Notes under the pieces: model-generated
What the model was told of the DNA's origin: nothing
Seen by the model: only the letters and a program-made list of their open reading frames with translations
Databases searched by the model: none
Translations under genes and position numbers: made by a program
Source: a virus
Length of the DNA: 20,027 nt
Strand: one strand, 5' to 3'
IMG/VR virus record: IMGVR_UViG_3300012931_000086
Location: 1-20,027 of that record
Part shown: positions 1,841 to 18,179 of the stretch, piece by piece
Position numbering within the stretch: the first letter of the stretch is position 1
Layout: every line of letters begins with the position of its first letter

Positions 1841-4504
1841 ATGACCACAGAGACATTAGTAAAAACCCATTTCAGTCCGGCCCGGGCCAATCATGCAATA
1901 GAGTTCATAGAGAATCTCGAACTTACCACCGGAGAGTGGAAGGGACTGAAATTTAAACTCCTGCCCTGGCAGAAGAAAATCATCTCAGATATATTCGGGA
2001 CTCTGAGACCAAACGGTTACCGGCAGTATAACACGGTTTATATCGAGATTCCAAAAAAGAACGGGAAAGCTCTTGCACTTGACACACCATTGCCCACGCC
2101 TACTGGCTGGACAACAATGGGTGATATTAAAATTGGGGACACTTTATTTGACGAACAAGGGAAACAGTGCCATGTTACATTTGTAACTGAGATACAAAAC
2201 AACCATCCCTGTTATGAGGTTATTCTTGAGGATGGCAGCCGTATTGTAGCCGATGAATCCCATTTATGGTTAACATCAACCTACAAACCCTGGTTAAAAA
2301 CAAAATTACACACTACTAAAGAAATATCCGAAACTCTAGTCTATCAGAAAGGGCATAATCATAAAATAGCCAACCCCGAAGCTCTTGAATTACCTGATGC
2401 GGAATTACCGATAGACCCATACATTTTGGGTTATTGGTTGGGTGATGGCAGGAGTGATGATGCCGAATTCAGTATGGATGAGGCGGACTTTGATAATTTT
2501 GCCTCACAAATAGAAGTTGCCGGATATTATGTTGCCACTCCAAAAAAAGATTCTCGGCGCCTGAATACATTAGCTGTGCGTGTATCTTTATCTGCAGTTG
2601 GGGGGGCAAATAATAACGGGAAACCCACATTAAAAGGAGCATTAAGAAATTTAGGGTTATTGGATAATAAACATATCCCGGCTATGTATTTAAGGTCATC
2701 CCATAAACAGAGGTTAGCACTTTTACATGGATTAATGGACTCCGATGGCTATGTTTCAAAGGCCGGTCAATGTGAATTTACAACTACATCTGAGCGAATA
2801 AGAGATGGCATACTTGAATTATTACTGTCTCTTGGTTTTAAACGATCGTTAAAAATTGATACTGCGAGATTGTACGGCAAGGATTGCGGCTTAAAATATA
2901 GAATACAATTCTGGGCTTATCAAGGAAACCCTGTATTTAAACTCAATCGTAAATTAGAACGCCAAAAACCTCTACCTTTAAAAAACACCAGAAACGCTTT
3001 TAGAAAAATAATTGCTGTTAATCCGGTTGAATCAGTACCAGTTAAGTGTATTCAGGTTGATAGTCCTTCTCATTTATATCTGGCGGGTACTGGGATGGTT
3101 CCGACTCATAATACGGAGCTCGCCGCTGCTGTAGCTTTATATTTACTTTTCGGTGACAATGAACCTGGTGCCCAGGTCTACTGTGCAGCCGCCGATAAAG
3201 ATCAGGCGGGACTTGTCTACGGTGCTGCCGCCCAAATGATAAGGACTTCCCCTGCATTACTAAAACGTTGCAAGGTCAATGACAGCCGTAAAAGAATCTG
3301 GTTACTCAATGACAATGCTTTCATGCAGACGCTATCGTCTGAGGTTAATACTAAACACGGCCTGAATGTCTCCGGGGTCGTAATCGATGAGTTGCACGCC
3401 CACCCTGACCGGAAATTATATGAGGTGCTGACAAAAGGCTCCGGCGATGCCCGCCGGCAACCAATGAACTTTATCATCACCACAGCCGGGATAGATCGTA
3501 ATTCGGTTTGCTGGGAACTGCACGAGAAAGCCAGGGGAATCCTGAACGGTACATTAGAAGACCCGACATTCTATCCGGTGATTTTTGGTCCGCCCGACGA
3601 TGAAGCCGGTACTGATTGGGATTGGACATTAGAGGAAAACTGGCTAAAAGTAAATCCCTCATTGGGTCATACAATCGCAATTGATAAAGTCCGTGATGCT
3701 TTTCGTGAAGCTCGGCGTAAAGTCGAAGAGGAAAATACATTTAAACAACTCCGCCTTAATATCTGGGTGAAGCAATCAATGCGGTGGATCAAACTCACGG
3801 ACTGGGATAAATGCGTGGGAACAGTAAACCTAGAAGAGCTCAAAGGCAAAACCTGCTATTCCGCATTTGATCTGTCTTCGAGTATAGATTTAACCGCTCT
3901 GGCTCATGTTTTCCCGGTTGATGGCAAATACAAGGTTTTGATGCGTTTTTGGATTCCCGAAGGTGTTATAGACGAAAAGGAAAAGAAAGATAAAGTACCT
4001 TATCGCCGGTGGATACGTGAGGGATATATTCAAACGACACCGGGTAATTTGATAGATTACCAATTTATCCGGAAGCAACTAAACGATGACCGGGCAATTT
4101 TTGATATGCGCGAACTGGCCTATGACCGCTGGGGAACGGTTAAGCTCTTGACTGAGCTCCAAGACGATGGATTCGTAAATACAGAAAAAGAGGCCGGAGA
4201 CGGCCACCCTTTATTAGTACCGTTTGGTCAGGGTTATGCCTCGATGTCCCCAGCGGCAAAGGGGTTTATTGATATCCTGCTGGGCGGATTTTTAGAACAT
4301 GGTAATAATCCTGTGTTGAGGTGGAATGCCGATAACGCAGTAATTACTCAAGACCCGGCAGGGAATATTAAACCGGACAAATCCAAGGCCACACAGCGTA
4401 TTGATGGTATAGTCGCTCTCGTGATGGCCACGGATAGAGCCATTAGGCACAATAACGAAAATGAACCCTCAATTTACGAAACTTCTGAAATCAAGGTATT
4501 CTAA
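1841..4504 (+). CDS. Terminase large subunit precursor, interrupted by an intein
   Basis: The 887-residue precursor splits into a 539-residue terminase (extein residues 1-76 and 425-887) and a 348-residue intein. After splicing, PKKNGK joins TELAAA and restores the Walker A loop, so packaging ATPase activity depends on splicing. Walker B is VVIDELHAH at 513-521, with D516 and E517. The C-terminal RNase H-like nuclease shows AFDLSSSIDLTAL (D677), AYDRWGT (D762) and DGIVALVMATD (D855 or D865) as probable metal ligands. The length without the intein fits the Terminase_1 (HK97-type) family. The protein cuts concatemeric DNA and drives it through the portal. It follows the small subunit without spacing and precedes portal by 14 bases. 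The extein sampled at 3361-3480 is about 54% GC, higher than the intein. Confidence 0.96.
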   Translation: MTTETLVKTHFSPARANHAIEFIENLELTTGEWKGLKFKLLPWQKKIISDIFGTLRPNGYRQYNTVYIEIPKKNGKALALDTPLPTPTGWTTMGDIKIGDTLFDEQGKQCHVTFVTEIQNNHPCYEVILEDGSRIVADESHLWLTSTYKPWLKTKLHTTKEISETLVYQKGHNHKIANPEALELPDAELPIDPYILGYWLGDGRSDDAEFSMDEADFDNFASQIEVAGYYVATPKKDSRRLNTLAVRVSLSAVGGANNNGKPTLKGALRNLGLLDNKHIPAMYLRSSHKQRLALLHGLMDSDGYVSKAGQCEFTTTSERIRDGILELLLSLGFKRSLKIDTARLYGKDCGLKYRIQFWAYQGNPVFKLNRKLERQKPLPLKNTRNAFRKIIAVNPVESVPVKCIQVDSPSHLYLAGTGMVPTHNTELAAAVALYLLFGDNEPGAQVYCAAADKDQAGLVYGAAAQMIRTSPALLKRCKVNDSRKRIWLLNDNAFMQTLSSEVNTKHGLNVSGVVIDELHAHPDRKLYEVLTKGSGDARRQPMNFIITTAGIDRNSVCWELHEKARGILNGTLEDPTFYPVIFGPPDDEAGTDWDWTLEENWLKVNPSLGHTIAIDKVRDAFREARRKVEEENTFKQLRLNIWVKQSMRWIKLTDWDKCVGTVNLEELKGKTCYSAFDLSSSIDLTALAHVFPVDGKYKVLMRFWIPEGVIDEKEKKDKVPYRRWIREGYIQTTPGNLIDYQFIRKQLNDDRAIFDMRELAYDRWGTVKLLTELQDDGFVNTEKEAGDGHPLLVPFGQGYASMSPAAKGFIDILLGGFLEHGNNPVLRWNADNAVITQDPAGNIKPDKSKATQRIDGIVALVMATDRAIRHNNENEPSIYETSEIKVF
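2069..3112 (+). other. Intein with LAGLIDADG homing endonuclease, class 3-like, in terminase Walker A
   Basis: The insertion lies exactly between K76 and T425 of the precursor, inside the GKT of the ATP-binding loop. It begins with Ala, not Cys or Ser, and ends in THN before an extein Thr. Intein residues: block A ALALDTPLPTPTGW at 1-14; block B SRIVADESHLWLT with H65 and W67; LAGLIDADG motif 1 ILGYWLGDG at 119-127 (D126); motif 2 LLHGLMDSDG at 218-227 (D224); block F VKCIQVDSPSHLYLAG with C327; block G VPTHN with T346, H347 and N348. W67, C327 and T346 match the Trp-Cys-Thr triplet that defines class 3 inteins, which start splicing from an internal Cys instead of residue 1. Both endonuclease acidic residues are present, so mobility may be intact. 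Sampled lines are 30-40% GC, lower than the adjoining terminase. Confidence 0.93.
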
Positions 4505-8786: not shown

Positions 8787-9878
8787 ATGGCATTAAAACT
8801 TAAAACCGCTCCCACACTTGAACCGATCAGTAAAACGGAAGCGAAACTGCACCTTAAACTCGACAGTGAGTCCTTCGCTGACAACATTGTTATAAATCAA
8901 AGCATTACCCCTGGTGACCATGTTATCGCAGCCTCTTATTCGCTGGTTGGTACAGCTATTAATGTTCTTGGTAAAAATGTTGTCGTCAATCTCAACTCAG
9001 GGGCTAACGGGACCGGCGGTACGGTAGACGTTAAACTACAGGACTCGGACGACGGTACGACCTATACCGACGTGGCCAACGGGGCATTTACTCAGGTTAC
9101 CGAGTCAAACGACAATGCAGTTCAGGAAAAGACGTATACCGGCGGCAAGCACTATTTAAAAGCCGTTGCTACTGTCGGCGTTGCTACCTGTGATTTCGGA
9201 GTTGATATTATAGTGTCCGACTCCGATACCACGGAAGATAACGAGTTGGACATCATCATCGGGACTGCCCGCGAGTACTGCGAGGGATTCCAAAATAGAG
9301 CCTACCTTGAGCAGACCTGGGAGCTGTGGTTAGATGAGTTCCCGGAGGACGATTACATCAAGCTGCCCCTACCGCCTCTTTACTGCCCGGCCATAACTGC
9401 CGGGGCATTTGTTACCGGCGTCACTTACCGGATTCTCTCTATCGGGACGACCGATTTCACTCTGATAGGAGCTGCGGCAAATACTGTCGGCGTGGTCTTT
9501 ACCGCGACCGGGGCCGGGACAGGGACAGGGACCGCCACCGCCTCCGTGATCATCTCCTATTACGGCACCGACAATACAGTTTATTACATGGATGCGGGCG
9601 ACTATACGATTGACGATAAGGACCAGTTCGAGCCAAAGGTGTTTTTGAATTATGGCGAGAGCTGGCCCAGCACCACACTCAGACCGCACAACGGCGTCTG
9701 TGTGACCTTTATCGCCGGTTACGGAGCAACAGCCAGTTCGGTGCCTTTAAAGGTAAAACAGGCCATGCTGCTGCTGATCGGACATCTTTATGAGCACCGG
9801 GAGGCAGTAACCGACAAACAATTAACTAACGCGCCGCTGGCCGTTGATTCGCTGCTCTGGCAGGAGCGTGTTCTCTGA
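8787..9878 (+). CDS. Head-tail connector protein (HK97 gp6 / phiE125 gp8-like) with two inserted domains
   Basis: The familiar connector core is split over a 363-residue protein, about twice the usual 180-200. Core pieces: ALKLKTAPTLEPISKTEAKLHLKLD (2-26); EDNELDIIIGTAREYCEGFQNRAYLEQTWELWLDEFP (150-186) with LPLPPLYCPA (193-202); then a DAGDYTIDD turn, SWPSTTLRPHNGVCVTFIAGYG and VKQAMLLLIGHLYEHREAV near the end. Insert 1 (about 34-148) is a beta-rich domain with LQDSDDGTTYTDVANGAFTQV. Insert 2 (about 203-251) is ITAGAFVTGVTYRILSIGTTDFTLIGAAANTVGVVFTATGAGTGTGTA, a module that recurs in phage virion proteins. The ring of this protein sits under the portal. GGAG lies 9 bases before the ATG, and the stop overlaps the next start (TGATG). 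Confidence 0.88.
   Translation: MALKLKTAPTLEPISKTEAKLHLKLDSESFADNIVINQSITPGDHVIAASYSLVGTAINVLGKNVVVNLNSGANGTGGTVDVKLQDSDDGTTYTDVANGAFTQVTESNDNAVQEKTYTGGKHYLKAVATVGVATCDFGVDIIVSDSDTTEDNELDIIIGTAREYCEGFQNRAYLEQTWELWLDEFPEDDYIKLPLPPLYCPAITAGAFVTGVTYRILSIGTTDFTLIGAAANTVGVVFTATGAGTGTGTATASVIISYYGTDNTVYYMDAGDYTIDDKDQFEPKVFLNYGESWPSTTLRPHNGVCVTFIAGYGATASSVPLKVKQAMLLLIGHLYEHREAVTDKQLTNAPLAVDSLLWQERVL
8886..9230 (+). other. Inserted beta-rich domain in the connector (insert 1)
   Basis: Codons for about residues 34-148 of the connector break the normal helical bundle core between the KLHLKLD and TAREYCEGF segments. The insert has alternating hydrophobic residues, the LQDSDDGTTYTDV turn, an EKTYTGGKHYLKAVATVG segment and no cysteine pair or catalytic residue. 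It looks like an immunoglobulin-like or jelly-roll fold. Boundaries are approximate, set by comparing with the remembered layout of uninterrupted family members. Confidence 0.7.
9393..9539 (+). other. Inserted virion module GTTDF/GVVFTATG in the connector (insert 2)
   Basis: Codons for about residues 203-251 encode a 49-residue module with the pattern AGxFVxGxxYxIxxxGTTDFxxIGAxxNTxGxxFxATGxGxGTGxA, found widely in tail fibre and other phage virion proteins. Here it interrupts the connector between LPPLYCPA and the strand leading to DAGDYTID. The end is a short near-repeat of GGGACA units coding for GTGTG. Confidence 0.75.
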
Positions 9879-10201
9879 TGGTTAGAGCAGGAGATTTAAG
9901 GCAACGCCTAATTATTCAGATAGCCTCAAAAGCTAAGGACGCCGGTGATGCCTGGGTTAAGACGTGGACGACATGGGCCACCGTTTGGGCTGATATTATA
10001 CCCGACACCGGCAACACTCAATATTCCGCTTCTCAACTCAACTCCGAAGCAAACGGCAAAATAAGGATCCGCTGGCGATATGGCGTCAAGCCGACTATGC
10101 GGGGTTCTTATCAAGGCCATATTTACGAGTTTCTATCTATCATCGAGCCGCAAAAAGCTCATGACGATCTGGTGATAATTTACCGGGAGAAATTGGACTA
10201 A
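9878..10201 (+). CDS. Head closure / head-tail joining protein (SPP1 gp16 / HK97 gp7-like)
   Basis: The protein has 107 residues, typical for the Phage_H_T_join family. The opening AGDLRQRLIIQIASKAKDAGDAWVKTWTTWATVWADI is the family hallmark (start with GxLxxRIxIQ, then a W-x-x-x-xxVWAxI strand). It goes on with RIRWRYGVKPTMRGSYQGHIYEFLSIIEPQKAHDDLVIIYREKLD, matching the usual beta-barrel and end. It forms a ring under the connector that closes the filled head and docks the tail. Translation is coupled to both neighbours: it begins inside the connector stop (TGATG) and its stop overlaps the next start (TAATG). Confidence 0.9.
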   Translation: MVRAGDLRQRLIIQIASKAKDAGDAWVKTWTTWATVWADIIPDTGNTQYSASQLNSEANGKIRIRWRYGVKPTMRGSYQGHIYEFLSIIEPQKAHDDLVIIYREKLD

Positions 10202-10620
10202 TGGAAGAGATCATCGGTATGGAAGAGCTGGAGAACAACATCGAGAAGGTTAAGGCGCAGCTTACCGCCGACCAGATCGAACCGGTACTGCTGCAGGGGG
10301 CCAATATTATTGCCCAGGCTGCCATTAATAACGCCCCGACAGGTCCGACCGGCAATTTGAAACGCGGTATCATCGCCAAGACCCTGACAAGGACCAGCGA
10401 TCAACCGGCTCCGGCCATCGCTGCCATCGATTACCGTATCGCCCCGCATGCGCACCTGGTAGAGTTTGGTCATTTTCAAACCAAAAAAAAAGGCGGTCCG
10501 GCAGTTAAATATGTCGCTCCTCATCCCTTCTTCCGCCCTGCATGGGACACGAATAAAGAGGCAGTCTGTGAGGCCATTACCGACGAATTAAAAAACATGA
10601 TTGAGGGAGCACCGGATTAA
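10201..10620 (+). CDS. HK97 gp10-like tail completion / head-tail joining protein
   Basis: The protein has 139 residues, the normal size for the HK97 gp10 family. It starts with EEIIGMEELENNIEKVKAQLTADQIEPVLLQGANIIAQAAINNAP, a long helix followed by the conserved AxxNAPxxTGxLKRGI turn (here APTGPTGNLKRGIIAKT). A later strand has HAHLVEFGHFQTKKKGG, the typical LVEFG segment, and then APHPFFRPAWDTNKE, the conserved PFxRPA block. The protein takes part in joining head and tail or completing the tail. It overlaps both neighbours by one base in TAATG junctions, so four neck genes are probably translated as one coupled unit. Confidence 0.9.
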   Translation: MEEIIGMEELENNIEKVKAQLTADQIEPVLLQGANIIAQAAINNAPTGPTGNLKRGIIAKTLTRTSDQPAPAIAAIDYRIAPHAHLVEFGHFQTKKKGGPAVKYVAPHPFFRPAWDTNKEAVCEAITDELKNMIEGAPD

Positions 10621-11021
10621 TGTTTATCCAGCAGGCACTTGAAAAAGAACTGAAACTGGCCGCGGCGGTTACTGCGCTGGCGGGCGAGCGTATCTATTAT
10701 GCCGGTAATGTCCCTCAGGAAGTGGCATATCCTTATATTGTTCTGCAAAAGATATCCGATGTACCGGATAAGCACAGCTTCGATGCCGCCTCAGAAGCAT
10801 CAGTTGCCCGGATACAGATATCGATATTTTCCGACAACTATTACACATGTCAACAGATCGCCGATGCGGTCAAAGCTGCCATCAACGGCTTCAAGGGAAC
10901 GATGGGCGGCGGTGCGGGTGTGGCAGTAGGCGGCTGCTTCCTGGAAAGTGACAATGATCTGCCGCCCGAAGATAAGCTGGCACCCTACGGCATAGCCGCG
11001 GATTACATTTTGCATTATTAA
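10620..11021 (+). CDS. Tail terminator / completion protein (DUF3168, gp17-like)
   Basis: The protein has 133 residues. It shows the usual outline of DUF3168 proteins: a helix at the N terminus (EKELKLAAAVTALAGERIYYAGNVPQEVAYPYIVLQKISDVPD), a strand with ASVARIQISIFSDNYYTCQQIADAVKAAING, and a final strand ending in APYGIAADYILHY. These proteins form a hexameric ring that caps the tail tube and binds the head closure ring. GGAG lies upstream within the previous gene. It is the last gene of the neck cluster; the tail tube gene follows 17 bases later with its own strong ribosome binding site. Confidence 0.88.
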   Translation: MFIQQALEKELKLAAAVTALAGERIYYAGNVPQEVAYPYIVLQKISDVPDKHSFDAASEASVARIQISIFSDNYYTCQQIADAVKAAINGFKGTMGGGAGVAVGGCFLESDNDLPPEDKLAPYGIAADYILHY

Positions 11022-11038: not shown

Positions 11039-11464
11039 ATGGCTACAGGTAATACTCAGGTTGGTTATGGAACTACATTAAAATGGAACTCGTATACAGT
11101 TGCCAAACTGACCAAAATCGGCGGCGCGAGTTTCAAAACCCAGGAGGTGGATATTGCCACCCTCGATGCAGCGAACAGGGCATTAGTCACCAAACCCGGA
11201 ATGATAAAATATCAACCTATACCGGTCGAGGGTGTACTGGCAACGGACGATACGACCGGTCAAATGGCATTATACACAGATGGTCAAGCAGCAACATCCA
11301 GGACGTTTATAATCACCCTCCCGACAACTTTAGGCACGGTTACGGTGACCGGTACCGCTTTTCTCTCCGAGGTGGGATTGGGTGATATTACGCCGGAGGG
11401 ATATATCACGATCAAGTTCAATATAACCCCGACCGGCGCATGGACATGGTCGTCTGCTGCTTAA
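11039..11464 (+). CDS. Major tail tube protein
   Basis: The 141-residue protein has the beta-rich make-up of siphovirus tail tube proteins. Notable segments are YGTTLKWNSYTVAKLTKIGGASFKTQEVDIATLD near the start, IKYQPIPVEGVLATDDTTGQMALYTDG in the middle, and TVTVTGTAFLSEVGLGDITPEGYITIKFNITPTGAW near the end. Hexamers of this protein stack to form the tube through which DNA passes. The ribosome binding site GGAGGT at 11025-11030, 8 bases before the ATG, is one of the strongest in the window, fitting a protein made in large amounts. It sits between the tail terminator and the assembly chaperones, the conserved position of the tube gene. Confidence 0.88.
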   Translation: MATGNTQVGYGTTLKWNSYTVAKLTKIGGASFKTQEVDIATLDAANRALVTKPGMIKYQPIPVEGVLATDDTTGQMALYTDGQAATSRTFIITLPTTLGTVTVTGTAFLSEVGLGDITPEGYITIKFNITPTGAWTWSSAA

Positions 11465-11494
11465 ATATTTCGTACGGAATAATTGAGGGAGATA

Positions 11495-11911
11495 ATGAAT
11501 TTATTTTTCTGGAAGAAGCGTAAAGAGGTAACGGGAATTCCGGGCATTGAAGGGCGGCCGCTGAAATTAACCTGGCAGGCCATCAGTGAATTTCAGGAAT
11601 TAACCGGTACCGATATCCTGCAAATAGGTGATATCAGAAAACTTACGCCGAAGGAGACCTATATACTCATCTGGAAATGCCTTACCCGGGATGATCCCGC
11701 ACTAACATTTACTGATGTTTCGGCAATGATAGAGCGGGCGGATATGCAGGCATTGTGGAAATCTCTTATAGACTGCATTAATGAATCTCTTCCGGAGGTG
11801 AAAGGCGAAACCGTCCCTTTAGCAGTAACCCAGAGCCAACCGACTGGGCCTTCCTCTGGTCCTTTGCCGTCTACAACCTCAAAATCTCCGAAGTGTCTTT
11901 CTTGGCATTAA
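11495..11911 (+). CDS. Tail assembly chaperone, short form (lambda G-like)
   Basis: I start the gene at the ATG at 11495 (138 residues), with GAGGGAG at 11485-11491; a TTG at 11483 in the same frame is inside this ribosome binding site and is unlikely. The core is LKLTWQAISEFQELTGTDILQIGDIRKLTPKETYILIWKCLTRDDPALTFTDVSAMIERADMQALWKSLIDCINESLPE, which resembles the helical first chaperone of siphophages (family pattern of a short helical protein that counts and binds tape measure). Its last 30 residues are low in structure. Before the stop, ribosomes can slip back one base and make a longer fusion with the T-like frame. It is encoded between tail tube and tape measure, the invariant position of lambda G and GT. 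Confidence 0.85.
   Translation: MNLFFWKKRKEVTGIPGIEGRPLKLTWQAISEFQELTGTDILQIGDIRKLTPKETYILIWKCLTRDDPALTFTDVSAMIERADMQALWKSLIDCINESLPEVKGETVPLAVTQSQPTGPSSGPLPSTTSKSPKCLSWH
11794..11859 (+). promoter_or_regulatory. -1 programmed ribosomal frameshift signal in the tail chaperone gene
   Basis: Three elements are arranged as in bacterial -1 frameshift sites. An internal Shine-Dalgarno, GGAGGTGA at 11794-11801, lies 13 bases before the slippery heptamer C CCT TTA (11815-11821), read in the short frame as CCT TTA. The heptamer fits X XXY YYZ, so both tRNAs can re-pair one base back. A hairpin follows: CCCAG at 11829-11833 with CTGGG at 11844-11848, 7 bases after the heptamer, with an alternative stem CCAGAG at 11830-11835 with CTCTGG at 11854-11859. 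No start codon sits at a usable distance from the Shine-Dalgarno, which supports a stimulatory role. Confidence 0.8.
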
Positions 11912-12156
11912 CACCCCGTGAATTTCAGGCATTGGTAGACCGCTATAAAGACGAACAGGACTGGTTAAATTACAGGTCAGCCCTGATTGCCTCAATAATA
12001 GCCAGTGCCTCGACCGGCAAGGAATTCCAGCCGAAAGAGTTCATGCCGGATAATTTCAAGGAATCAACTGTAATCCAGACATCCGACCAAATGGCCGCAC
12101 AACTGAAGGCGATCACACTACTCACGGGCGGCAAAGTGGAGACAAAACATGTCTAA
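11821..12156 (+). CDS. Tail assembly chaperone extension (T-like part of a -1 frameshift fusion)
   Basis: This frame is open from after a stop at 11782-11784 and has no good start codon near its beginning. Translated through the proposed slip it reads DWAFLWSFAVYNLKISEVSFLALTPREFQALVDRYKDEQDWLNYRSALIASIIASA, which is the classical second chaperone pattern (helix, LTPREF, then a long basic helix). The fusion is 109 residues of the short form plus 111 of this frame, 220 in total, a usual GT size. A GTG at 11893 could serve as a separate start but would discard the conserved WAFLWSFAVY part. The final codons overlap the tape measure start by 8 bases. The fused protein binds the tape measure and recruits tube subunits. 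Confidence 0.85.
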   Translation, partial: SSNPEPTDWAFLWSFAVYNLKISEVSFLALTPREFQALVDRYKDEQDWLNYRSALIASIIASASTGKEFQPKEFMPDNFKESTVIQTSDQMAAQLKAITLLTGGKVETKHV

Positions 12157-12790
12157 AATGGGCGAACTCTCTGTATTAATCCGAGGCAATAACCAGCTCA
12201 CACCGGAACTCAACACCGTTAATGCCTCGTTGAAGTCGTTTAGCAGTACGCATAAGAGCACGACCGACATAACCGAATATAACACCAAACTTTCAAACCG
12301 TTCCTTTAGTCAGATGAAATCCGCCGTCCGGGAGCTGGCTAATGGCGTCGGTTTTCTCGGTTCGACTTTTATCGGCCTCGGCTCATCGATGGAGAAATCG
12401 ACCAACAAGACGACTCAAAACATCGGGCAAATGGTATTAATGGCCGGTACCATCATGACGGCGGTGGCCAGCTCGGTGCAGTTTGTTTCGGCTATTTCAA
12501 AAATGGTCTCCGCTCTGAATAAACTGCGCAGTGCCCAGATACTTGCTCAGGCGTTTTCCGGGCCGGGCGGTTGGGGCATGCTGGCAGTCGGCGGATTGGT
12601 GGCAGGCGGTACGATAGCCACGGTCAGTGCTATTTCCAAGGCCTCGAGTGAAAAGACCACCTCCACGGCGGGAAATAGTGTCACCGTAAATGTTGCCGGT
12701 AGCGTGGTTACTGAAAAGAAATTAACCGAGGTTGTGCGCCAGGGAATTGTTACCGGGCAGAGTCGAAACTATACGAGCGGGATTAAATGA
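12149..12790 (+). CDS. Tape measure protein, unusually short
   Basis: The protein has 213 residues, whereas siphovirus tape measures usually have 600-2000. Position (right after the chaperones) and layout still point to it: an N-terminal GELSVLIRGNNQLTPELNTVNASLKSFSSTH block as seen at the start of tape measures; a helical, glycine- and serine-rich middle with hydrophobic stretches at about 91-120 and 138-163; and a C-terminal VTVNVAGSVVTEKKLTEVVRQGIVTGQSRNYTSGIK, typical of their ends. Nothing indicates truncation: start (GGAG 7 bases before ATG) and end are both normal. At about 1.5 angstrom per residue it would set a tail of only about 30 nm. The stop overlaps the next start (ATGA). Confidence 0.75.
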   Translation: MSKMGELSVLIRGNNQLTPELNTVNASLKSFSSTHKSTTDITEYNTKLSNRSFSQMKSAVRELANGVGFLGSTFIGLGSSMEKSTNKTTQNIGQMVLMAGTIMTAVASSVQFVSAISKMVSALNKLRSAQILAQAFSGPGGWGMLAVGGLVAGGTIATVSAISKASSEKTTSTAGNSVTVNVAGSVVTEKKLTEVVRQGIVTGQSRNYTSGIK

Positions 12791-12978
12791 AGAAAATTCT
12801 ATCTAACATCTCGACCATACTGCTATTTATCATCTTCTTTATTCCCACATTGCTCGCTATGGCGTTTAACCATAAATTCCGGGGGCGCATCTTAGGTATG
12901 CAGCCGGAGAAGGTTCACTATCTCGAAAATTGCGAAGTCGTTTTGAAATCAGGCAATAATACACGGAGGCTCAAATGA
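12787..12978 (+). CDS. Small single-pass membrane protein after the tape measure
   Basis: The 63-residue protein starts with MKK and a hydrophobic segment at about residues 9-28 (STILLFIIFFIPTLLAMAFN), followed by a basic, polar tail (HKFRGRILGMQPEKVHYLENCEVVLKSGNNTRRLK). This is the layout of a type II or III single-pass membrane protein or an uncleaved signal anchor. No lipobox is seen. It is fused to its neighbours by ATGA overlaps at both ends (12787-12790 and 12975-12978), so it is translated in the tail operon. I do not recognise the family. A role in membrane contact during infection or in superinfection exclusion is possible but only a guess. The ribosome binding site is weak, as expected for a coupled start. 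Confidence 0.65.
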   Translation: MKKILSNISTILLFIIFFIPTLLAMAFNHKFRGRILGMQPEKVHYLENCEVVLKSGNNTRRLK

Positions 12979-14864: not shown

Positions 14865-15194
14865 ATGGCTACGATAACGACAAATCTTAAAATCAGCCAG
14901 AACGATTACGGCAAGCCGATCACGTTCACCCTCTATGAATCGGACGGCACGACCGCTAGAAATCTAACCGGCTATACGGCGACCTTCAAGGTCTGGACGC
15001 CAGGGAGCCCCACTAGTGTGATTTTAAGCGGCGTCTGTACGGTCGACAGTGAGGCTGGGGGAATTTGTCATTATCAACCTGTAGCTGGTGATTTCCCAAC
15101 GGTCGGACTATATAATGCCGAGATCGAACTGACAGCGAGCGGTGTCGTAGATAGTATAATTCCATTCACTCTGGAAGTCCAGGAGAGCGCATAG
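14865..15194 (+). CDS. BppU N-domain-like baseplate/tail-tip protein
   Basis: The 109-residue protein matches, as remembered, the N-terminal domain of the phage baseplate upper protein (BppU_N): LKISQNDYGKPITFTLYESDGTTARNLTGYTATFKVWTPG near the start, then SGVCTVDSEAGGICHYQPVAGDFPTVGLYNAEIELTASGVVDSIIPFTLEVQE. The pattern of two beta sheets with a YxPxxGDFxxxGxYxAEIELT segment is the key. In phages this domain docks receptor-binding proteins on the baseplate. Here it stands alone, without the usual C-terminal extension, suggesting an adaptor between the 445-residue protein and the large tip protein that follows. AGGA precedes the ATG by about 8 bases, and the next gene begins right after the stop. 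Confidence 0.7.
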   Translation: MATITTNLKISQNDYGKPITFTLYESDGTTARNLTGYTATFKVWTPGSPTSVILSGVCTVDSEAGGICHYQPVAGDFPTVGLYNAEIELTASGVVDSIIPFTLEVQESA

Positions 15195-18179
15195 ATGACT
15201 ATAATTGCCAACTGGTCACATATTAATACCCTTAACGCCAGTAACGGCTATTACAGAGAGCGGTGGACGATATACGCAAGCGGTCGTTACTGGGTTGTTT
15301 ATATTTATGACGGTAGCACGTATGTGATAAGCTCAACCGATGGCATCAACTGGGGTTCGCCGGTGCTAATCACAGCCAATTCGGTTGATGATGTGGCTTT
15401 TCGCGGTGCATATATAGGTTATATCAGGCATCCAGACCTACAGAATTATACCTGGCGGATAGGCGGTCTTAATTCAGGTGGTACAATAACCTGGCAGGCG
15501 AACGAACAAACATATAGTGGTATCAACTGGCTATCCAGTTCCCTTTGTGCTTTTGATGACAGCTATAATTTGCAAATCCTGTACGGAGACAAAATAGGCA
15601 CATGGACTGATGGAGAATACCGTTCTACTAAGGGCTTTTACGCGATTGTCGGCAATGCCCCTTCTTGGTTTACTCATACGAGTGCTAGTAACTTATCTGA
15701 CTATCTGGAACTAATTATACCCCTGGCTACCGGTGAAAATTATTATACGTATCATCAGGCTAATGTGCTGTGGGGAAGATTGGGTTCGACCGAGGATTCA
15801 ATAGAATCTGATAACACGTCAAATTATAGTGCAATATCAGATTTAAACAGTAATATTTACCTCGCTTATTCCCGGACTTCAGGTAATAATTTTTATATTC
15901 GTGATTATGCGACTGGCGTTTGGACAAGCTCTCTGATCCCTGGCACCAGTAGCACGGATTATATTAAACTGACGTTTAATGAAACCGATAATACCCTCTG
16001 GGCCTTAAGATATTCAGGCGGCGTTTTATATTACGCCACCTATGACATTGCGACAGCAACGTGGGGGTCTTGGACTGAGGTATCAGGGTATTTGGGCAAT
16101 TTATGCTGCTTGATGCAGAATGAACGATTAATCATGACCTATGCGGATAGTAACGGTGTATATGCTCTGACCATGACCTCTGCATCGATTACGACCCTTC
16201 CCGCCACCGCCATCAAATTTACTCAGGCAACACTTAACGGAGAGCTGACCGGCGAGTCGGGAGAGGTCTATTTCGAGTGGGGCTTAACTAACAGCTACGG
16301 CAATACCACCGGCTCAATGACTATCAGTCCCGGCCTTTTCGTCTCGACTAACACCGGACTGACCAGGAATACACTTTATCATTTCAGGGCGGTTGCTGTC
16401 GTAAATGGCACTACTCTCTATGGCTCTGATCTGACCTTTAGCACCTGCGATGTCATTGTCGAGATGGCTTTCGGTTATCCCGTCTTCTCCGATCCCGAAG
16501 CATCTCCCAGCATCTGGACGGACGTGAGTAGTGAGTTGATGGGACTGGATACCGATCGCGGACGGATGCACGAACTCGACCGGATCGAGGCCGGTACCGC
16601 CGTTATCAAGATGAACAACGAGTCCGGGAACTGGTGGAGAAATAACACCGCCGGGGCTTATTACGGCACCAGCGGCAATGTGAAGCCCCTTACCCTTACC
16701 AGAGTCAAAGCGGCATATAACGGCACCACATATCCGCTATTTTACGGCTATATTGAGAAGACCCCCCCGAGCTGGCTGCTTGACGGCGGCTATGTGCCGG
16801 TTGTCGAAATTCAACTCGTGGATTTCTTTAAGAGCTTTGCGAGGTATAGTTTTACGATTACCTCGGCGAGAACTGCTGAATTATCGGGTCTTCGCTTTTC
16901 TTGGATACTCGATCAGCTCGCTATAAAGGCCGGGCTTGCCAATTGGCCTGCTAATTTAAAAGATATTACCGCCGGTACAGGAATAGTAGAAGTTGCTGAA
17001 CTGGCAGCCGGTACTTATAATGTCCTGGAGCAGCTCCAACTTACCGCCGAGGCCGAGGGCGGGCTTGTGATGATAGCACCTGATGGGAAGGTTACATTTC
17101 AAGACCAGACGGCTCGATATACGGTTACGGAGTTTAAATCCGTACAATCTACCTTTAGCGATGATGGCTCTGATGAGCCGTATATTTTACCCAAATTATC
17201 TGATGACGACAGTTTTATCTATAATAATGCCCATATCAAAGGTGATGCAGTTGACCAATCCCTTGCCAGCACAGCACAGGAAACTCAAGGGCCGCGACTC
17301 TGGGAGAAAACAGACTCTCTAATAAATAACACTGATGACGCGTTCGATCAGTGTTATGTCATTGTCGGTCGATATTCCGACTCGATATTCCGCTGCGAGT
17401 CATTATTAATCGATCCCGAAGCCGACCCAGTCAACCTGTACCCGATAATATTCGGGTATGACATTTCCTACCGCATCAACCTTGAACTCAACAGCACCCG
17501 CAACCCGGCCATGCTGGATCAGGACTATCATATTGAGGGCATCAAGCTGCACTGGACGATGGAAGAGGACTGGACGTGCGAATGGCAGCTGTGGGACGTG
17601 AATAAGTACCGGATATTAAGAATTGCTCATGAGGGTTGGGTTAAGAATGAGGGAGCGGCTTATAACACGGTCCAGGCGGCAGCCACGGGCGTTGATTCTT
17701 TAAATGATAATAACATTGCCGCCGGTCAGGAATATGCCTCTGGACCTCTTTATACTATCTGGCGGGGTTACGGTCAGTGGGATGCTTCCGGTGTTACCGG
17801 AAGTCCGACAGTAGCAGAAGCGTGGGTAGCGGTGCATGATGATTCTGCACTTGTGGTGTCTCGAGATTTTAAGATTGTTATTGTCCCTGGAGGTGTTTCT
17901 TACCCTCTGGATGATGACAGTTATGGTGACTTGGGATCACAAACAACTAATCTGGGAGAGCTGGATATTCTTACTACTACTCCAGCCGGTTGGCACTTCA
18001 TACCGTTAAATGCAACCGGTATCGCTTATTTGAATGTCGGCGGCACTATCGAACTTGGTTTCCGCACGGATAAAGATATTGCAGCCTCCGCTCCAACTGG
18101 TGCCGAGGAAATGCTGGTTATGCAGGGATCAGGACTAACTGAGGATAGCAAAGCTAGGCTGATATTGAGGTTCGCTTAG
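15195..18179 (+). CDS. Large tail-tip protein with propeller-like, FN3-like, hub-like and C-terminal surface domains
   Basis: The protein has 994 residues with four visible parts. Residues 1-335 show repeating YxxxxSTDGxxW and GxWTxx motifs, as in beta-propeller or sialidase-like domains, but no catalytic arginine triad is recognisable. Residues 336-418 (PATAIKFTQATLNGELTGESGEVYFEWGLTNSYGN...LYHFRAVAVVNGTTLYGSDLTFST) form a fibronectin-III-like domain. Residues about 421-800 have IWTDVSSELMGLDTDRGRMHELDRIEAGTAVIKMNNESGNW and TYPLFYGYIEKTPPSW, a tail-tip hub-like region known from siphovirus minor tail proteins. Residues about 805-994 resemble DNRLRE-type surface domains (WRGYGQWDASGVTG...WHFIPLNATGIAYLN). 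It probably builds the tail tip and binds host surface sugars or proteins. It ends 4 bases into a convergent gene. Confidence 0.75.
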   Translation: MTIIANWSHINTLNASNGYYRERWTIYASGRYWVVYIYDGSTYVISSTDGINWGSPVLITANSVDDVAFRGAYIGYIRHPDLQNYTWRIGGLNSGGTITWQANEQTYSGINWLSSSLCAFDDSYNLQILYGDKIGTWTDGEYRSTKGFYAIVGNAPSWFTHTSASNLSDYLELIIPLATGENYYTYHQANVLWGRLGSTEDSIESDNTSNYSAISDLNSNIYLAYSRTSGNNFYIRDYATGVWTSSLIPGTSSTDYIKLTFNETDNTLWALRYSGGVLYYATYDIATATWGSWTEVSGYLGNLCCLMQNERLIMTYADSNGVYALTMTSASITTLPATAIKFTQATLNGELTGESGEVYFEWGLTNSYGNTTGSMTISPGLFVSTNTGLTRNTLYHFRAVAVVNGTTLYGSDLTFSTCDVIVEMAFGYPVFSDPEASPSIWTDVSSELMGLDTDRGRMHELDRIEAGTAVIKMNNESGNWWRNNTAGAYYGTSGNVKPLTLTRVKAAYNGTTYPLFYGYIEKTPPSWLLDGGYVPVVEIQLVDFFKSFARYSFTITSARTAELSGLRFSWILDQLAIKAGLANWPANLKDITAGTGIVEVAELAAGTYNVLEQLQLTAEAEGGLVMIAPDGKVTFQDQTARYTVTEFKSVQSTFSDDGSDEPYILPKLSDDDSFIYNNAHIKGDAVDQSLASTAQETQGPRLWEKTDSLINNTDDAFDQCYVIVGRYSDSIFRCESLLIDPEADPVNLYPIIFGYDISYRINLELNSTRNPAMLDQDYHIEGIKLHWTMEEDWTCEWQLWDVNKYRILRIAHEGWVKNEGAAYNTVQAAATGVDSLNDNNIAAGQEYASGPLYTIWRGYGQWDASGVTGSPTVAEAWVAVHDDSALVVSRDFKIVIVPGGVSYPLDDDSYGDLGSQTTNLGELDILTTTPAGWHFIPLNATGIAYLNVGGTIELGFRTDKDIAASAPTGAEEMLVMQGSGLTEDSKARLILRFA

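Follow-up and report, generated by a model that had tools for sequence, protein, structure and literature searches.

A short tape measure protein in the siphovirus-type tail gene set of an uncultured phage lineage

The window analysed here is a stretch of 20,027 bases that makes up an entire virus record and is probably a fragment of the genome. In it was found the full complement of head and neck genes typical of long-tailed phages, comprising the small and large terminase, portal, protease, capsid, adaptor (Ad1), head closure (Hc1) and neck (Ne1) genes, together with the tail genes. The features from the neck to the tail tip are as follows.

8787–9878, + strand: adaptor Ad1 (phrog_40)
9878–10201, + strand: head closure protein Hc1 (phrog_25)
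10201–10620, + strand: neck/tail completion protein Ne1 (phrog_5)
10620–11021, + strand: tail terminator (phrog_347; Pfam Tail_completion_gp17)
11039–11464, + strand: tail tube protein, 141 aa, without a family match of its own; its orthologues match the major tail protein family phrog_158 (E 4.8e-11)
11483–11911, + strand: G-type tail assembly chaperone (phrog_2115, tail protein)
11893–12156, + strand: T-type chaperone ORF in the -1 frame (phrog_337; PF06223 slightly under the cut-off), overlapping both G and the start of the tape measure gene
12149–12790, + strand: short tape measure protein, 213 aa, with an N block (residues 1–30), a linker (31–55), a hydrophobic helical region (about 60–165) and a C block (175–213)
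12787–12978, + strand: 63-aa membrane protein, starting on the tape measure stop codon and absent from the two closest relatives
14865–15194, + strand: BppU-N-type baseplate/fibre protein, 109 aa (PF10651)
15195–18179, + strand: tail-tip protein, 994 aa, of which residues ~416–812 (nt 16440–17630) are predicted to form a T4 gp27-like hub

The T-type ORF overlaps the G gene in the -1 frame, as in the G/GT frameshift chaperone pairs. Inspection by eye of the overlap (11870–11911) disclosed a conserved CTCAAA stretch, and a canonical X XXY YYZ slippery heptamer was not recognised there; the frameshift site may be unusual. The hub prediction for the tip protein was fair (mean pLDDT 77), with the best match to 3cdd (E 1.8e-12), and with the T4 cell-puncturing device 1k28 matched at E 3.6e-12; large N- and C-terminal additions flank the hub region. 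No sheath gene was recognised in the window. Since the neck, terminator, tube, chaperone and gp27-like hub genes are present and no sheath was recognised, the tail set is, as judged from its gene content, of the siphovirus type and not of the podovirus type. The tube, chaperones, terminator and tip that an earlier note on this DNA had listed as a siphovirus set were all found beside the short gene. Identification of the short protein as a podovirus tail needle was considered and rejected, the tube, terminator and neck genes all being present. As a separate observation, the large terminase gene (1841–4504) seems to carry an in-frame intein-like insert at about residues 77–425 of 887, as seen by eye and from split terminase matches, and this insert contains a homing-endonuclease-like region.

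The 213-aa ORF at 12149–12790 begins with the ATG at 12149 and ends with the TGA at 12788–12790, as read from the sequence and its translation. The ATG sits in the final codons of the T-type ORF before it, which stops at 12156, and at the other end the stop codon overlaps the start codon of the following gene (ATG at 12787); both ends are thus fixed by overlaps, which indicates tight coupling to the neighbouring genes. A longer product obtained by readthrough or upstream extension was rejected: the open frame has 227 codons, only 14 more on the upstream side, and therefore offers no longer form from another start, and downstream the stop overlaps the next ATG. The gene occupies the position typical of tape measures, between the G/T-type chaperone ORFs and the tail-tip genes and downstream of the tube and terminator. 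The protein gave a weak but specific match to the tape measure family phrog_28 (E=3.4e-4 for the protein, 3.1e-7 when the family was sought in the record). The claim of the earlier note that a complete tape measure protein of 213 residues is encoded here agrees with the ORF coordinates and with the overlaps at both ends, and its identity is borne out by the gene position, by the profile match (a search that the note had proposed) and by the colinearity with longer homologues described below. The product of 12149–12790 is confirmed, by position and homology, as a complete tape measure protein.

The hydrophobic helical region of the window protein contains the motif SGPGGW, and its hydropathy peaks at residues 92–116 and 142–162 correspond to membrane-type segments. 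The AlphaFold model, which is of low confidence (mean pLDDT 54), places helices at residues 39–82, 87–124 and 140–165; no significant structural match was obtained in solved structures or in a viral fold library.

Direct protein searches with the window tape measure gave no match in viral contigs or phages, and its relatives were reached through the tube protein and then by alignment; likewise, the tip protein as a single query had no match in viral contigs, and tip alignments did find relatives. The tape measures of the two relatives reached through the tube protein are about 185 and 183 aa long and 42–45% identical to that of the window, and the linker of the window protein (31–55) holds an insert of about 25 aa that is missing from its closest relatives. 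The alignment searches enlarged the set, which, counting the window, comprises 19 records with 17 distinct loci and 18 distinct short genes of 171–243 aa (median 184). The 17 distinct homologues other than the window gene, at 16 other loci, show an unchanged gene order, all of them adjoining tail genes, and most short-form relatives have the tip gene immediately after the tape measure gene. What is kept across the short forms is the N block, the helical hydrophobic region around A(F/L)SGPxGW, and a C block with the consensus GSVxTExxLxxxVRxxIxxxQxRNxTSGIK, ending in RNxTSGIK or similar. In the three pairs of short genes close enough for an estimate, dN/dS was ~0.12–0.19, which points to purifying selection. 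In one phage (record L011, 6017–7098), two diverged short tape measure genes, for products of 171 and 188 aa, stand in tandem.

These data bear directly on whether the short gene is merely a damaged one. The earlier note had left room for a deletion in this isolate; such an isolate-specific deletion, or an assembly error, is refuted by the finding of 18 short genes at 17 loci with the dN/dS values given above. The broader explanation, that a tape measure decayed or was internally deleted in a defective element or is an assembly artefact, would be in keeping with the absence of the middle of the long forms, but is left with almost no chance by a form that is repeated in 19 records, is under purifying selection, constitutes a diverse and well-supported clade and has its overlaps intact at both ends.

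The terminase and portal families differ among the members (phrog_9/phrog_12 in the window, phrog_9/phrog_113 in G005, phrog_38/phrog_2662 in G016, and a phrog_2 terminase in G007), so the short-tail genes occur with different head modules. The joining of the short-tail gene set (L031–L036; G005, G016 and G007) to differing head modules suggests tail cassette exchange. Several further features were observed in these records. The tail tube gene is present in two tandem copies, of 141 and 140 aa, in L005 (2694–3551). Inside the tail genes of L033 (18434–19552), the opposite strand carries an ORF of 372 aa that looks, by eye, like a TnpB-type transposon protein. The structural region of L035 (13604–18532) includes a run of genes that by eye look like sugar or metabolic genes, namely kinase-like, radical-SAM-like, epimerase-like and transaldolase-like ones.

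Outside the short group, the tip homologues adjoin tape measures of 420–1030 aa, against 171–243 aa within it, in accordance with the view of the earlier note that the protein is far shorter than normal. Five scanned long neighbours are ordinary tape measures by family match (phrog_8462 and others, E to 1e-42). Like the short gene, those of L026 (420 aa), L046 (529 aa), L067/L027 (724 aa) and the Pontimonas phage phiPsal1 (740 aa) lie just upstream of the homologous hub. The five matching long forms score 25–49 bits with the short-form profile, compared with 9 bits for the best of 300 shuffled controls; the long tape measure of phiPsal1 had no detectable sequence match to this profile. The matches are colinear and interrupted. 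In L026, profile positions 2–75 correspond to residues 1–74 and positions 87–179 to residues 275–415, with ~200 residues skipped; in L018 (628 aa), positions 6–46 correspond to residues 5–46 and positions 44–172 to residues 220–351, ~175 residues being absent from the short form; in L027, the two ends are matched by the first 59 and the last 41 profile positions. The short form thus has its N and C blocks in common with L026 and L027 and its hydrophobic block with L026, whereas these conventional tape measures have some 200–500 or more extra residues. The long lumen-spanning middle segment, which is typical of the tape measure family though not required for homology, is absent from the short form. 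Of the two outcomes that the earlier note had proposed to distinguish, that relatives share the short form or that a middle portion was lost, both were found: a clade shares the form, and the middle of its long-form relatives is missing from it.

A maximum-likelihood tree calculated from the tip core placed all 14 short-form members in one clade with 100/100 support, recovered in 200/200 bootstrap trees, and under midpoint rooting this clade was nested inside the long forms. Given this nesting, the most economical history is one in which the middle was lost a single time. We infer accordingly that all short forms go back to one event, most simply the removal of the middle ruler segment of an ordinary tape measure, the long-to-short direction resting on the midpoint root of the tip tree. 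At the same time, the tip proteins have a median length of 962 aa in the short clade versus 410 aa beside long tape measures, with regions added at both the N and C termini. This single evolutionary contrast hints that, as the tail became shorter, parts for host binding were transferred to the hub.

A normal-length tail with another tape measure elsewhere in the genome, which the earlier note had named as grounds against its reading, is disfavoured. With phrog_28, no tape measure besides the 12149–12790 gene was found in the window and nothing in seven other short-form records, all of them fragments; the sensitivity of this profile is limited, since the short gene of each of those seven went undetected, though the two long-form records searched alongside both gave matches. 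PF10145 gave no match in the window or in the seven other short-form records. Moreover, in three long records (30–39 kb), the large ORFs that were scanned proved to be head, packaging or fibre proteins, or members of structural families without known function. No second tape measure was thus detected, and a distant one, though disfavoured by the sequence searches, is conceivable since all the records are fragments.

A tail of ordinary length could be built if the short protein had only the roles of seed, plug and membrane pore, length being set by end-to-end copies, by another long virion protein or by self-limiting tube growth. The retained parts are indeed those with non-ruler roles, L011 has two short tape measures in tandem, and the length variation within the clade is modest (171–243 aa); but no further tape-measure-like gene was found in either the window or the larger relatives, the large ORFs scanned belong to the classes just named, and in TP901-1 the tail length tracks tape measure size linearly (PMC5099701). 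We consider this explanation unlikely. It does not seem probable either that the lineage dropped the ruler function altogether, with the residual protein acting as seed, plug and membrane channel, the length set otherwise, and the tube and terminator working without a classical ruler. A ruler split between two genes, with the second supplying a coiled-coil middle (the downstream genes for 182-aa and 445-aa products being examples), might be looked for among the several genes without assignment between the tape measure and the tip in the window; however, most short-form relatives are without such genes, their tip gene standing directly after the tape measure, and the in-between proteins of the window are of beta-type composition (by a crude propensity measure) with no tape measure matches. 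The split ruler is therefore largely refuted and hardly credible.

Two published systems allow the tail length to be estimated. Mutational dissection of phage TP901-1 showed that its tail lengthens linearly with tape measure size, by 0.145 nm per residue and from zero at 127 residues, and that the tape measure requires its N-terminal 154 residues, its C-terminal 60 residues and the first hydrophobic region (PMC5099701). These three indispensable parts are of the kinds retained in the short form, and the tape measure has a generally similar place in the order of the tail genes; on the other hand, TP901-1 has ~810 ruler residues and a 118-nm tail, and its experimental minimum of 154 + 60 + ~71 residues exceeds the whole window protein. 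Applied to 213 residues, the TP901-1 line gives 12.5 nm, or approximately three rings. The ~32 nm put forward in the earlier note, from 1.5 angstrom per residue, treats all residues as ruler; the end blocks do not measure tube, so this value stands as the upper bound on tail length, against ~12 nm from the TP901-1 line (PMC5099701). The second system is the gene transfer agent RcGTA, whose tape measure g11 (Rcc01694) has ~216 residues (113 + 83 + 20) with five tube rings and a 49-nm tail (PMC7296036). The comparison with g11 was made by size and published description only: the two proteins are near-equal in size, and RcGTA has few rings (five) in a siphovirus-type tube with terminator and hub, whereas g11 is described as having a helix of 113 residues and, after it, beta structure, and has been compared to the P22 needle, and the middle of the window protein is the hydrophobic SGPxGW region. 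We would expect the window phage to have a tube of about 3–8 rings, ~12–32 nm, and nearer the low end. Its overall tail should then be similarly short to that of podoviruses and of P22 with its tail needle gp26, which differ in that the window phage has long-tailed neck, terminator and tube genes and no needle homologue was seen in it. The similar size of the RcGTA tape measure (PMC7296036) raises the idea that the group consists of gene-transfer-agent-like particles with RcGTA-like short tails and not of infectious phages, which is very unlikely given that the large relatives (30–39 kb records) encode terminases and portals of their own along with other phage-type genes.

We consider it likely that the gene encodes a genuine tape measure cut to its indispensable parts and specifying a very short siphovirus tail. 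Under the mechanism proposed, the C block would seed tail assembly in the gp27-like tip hub, the short helical body would be coated by the G and GT chaperones, and tube hexamers would stack up to the N block, where the terminator would cap the tube after ~3–8 rings. At infection, the hydrophobic SGPxGW region would exit the tail and aid the passage of DNA across the membrane. The short-tail gene set, having arisen once, would then have persisted, diversified and become associated with different head modules.

Among cultured phages (50,697 records), the three short members tried had no real match. Kovu and Mae-JY09, whose tube or tip proteins are weakly related, were rejected as cultured relatives: their products are a tape measure of 1243 aa and, at the usual site of a tape measure, a protein of 1554 aa. 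Two scans of bacterial genomes found no relative, and so indicated no host. The literature consulted, mostly papers accessible without subscription, held no description of a siphovirus tape measure family this short, RcGTA being the only published precedent found for so short a tape measure in a siphovirus-type tail (PMC7296036).

An old and diverse lineage of uncultured phages thus has a short tape measure in which the ends and the membrane-active part are kept and the long middle is missing. The family represents a natural minimal tape measure, below the smallest functional mutant form of TP901-1, with long-form relatives bearing homologous tip genes. In it, the anchoring and ejecting parts have been separated by nature from the measuring part, and the minimum ring number of a siphovirus tail becomes directly testable. 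If the tails are very short, the boundary between siphovirus and podovirus morphology hangs on the loss of ~200 residues; if they are long, the ruler model needs revision.
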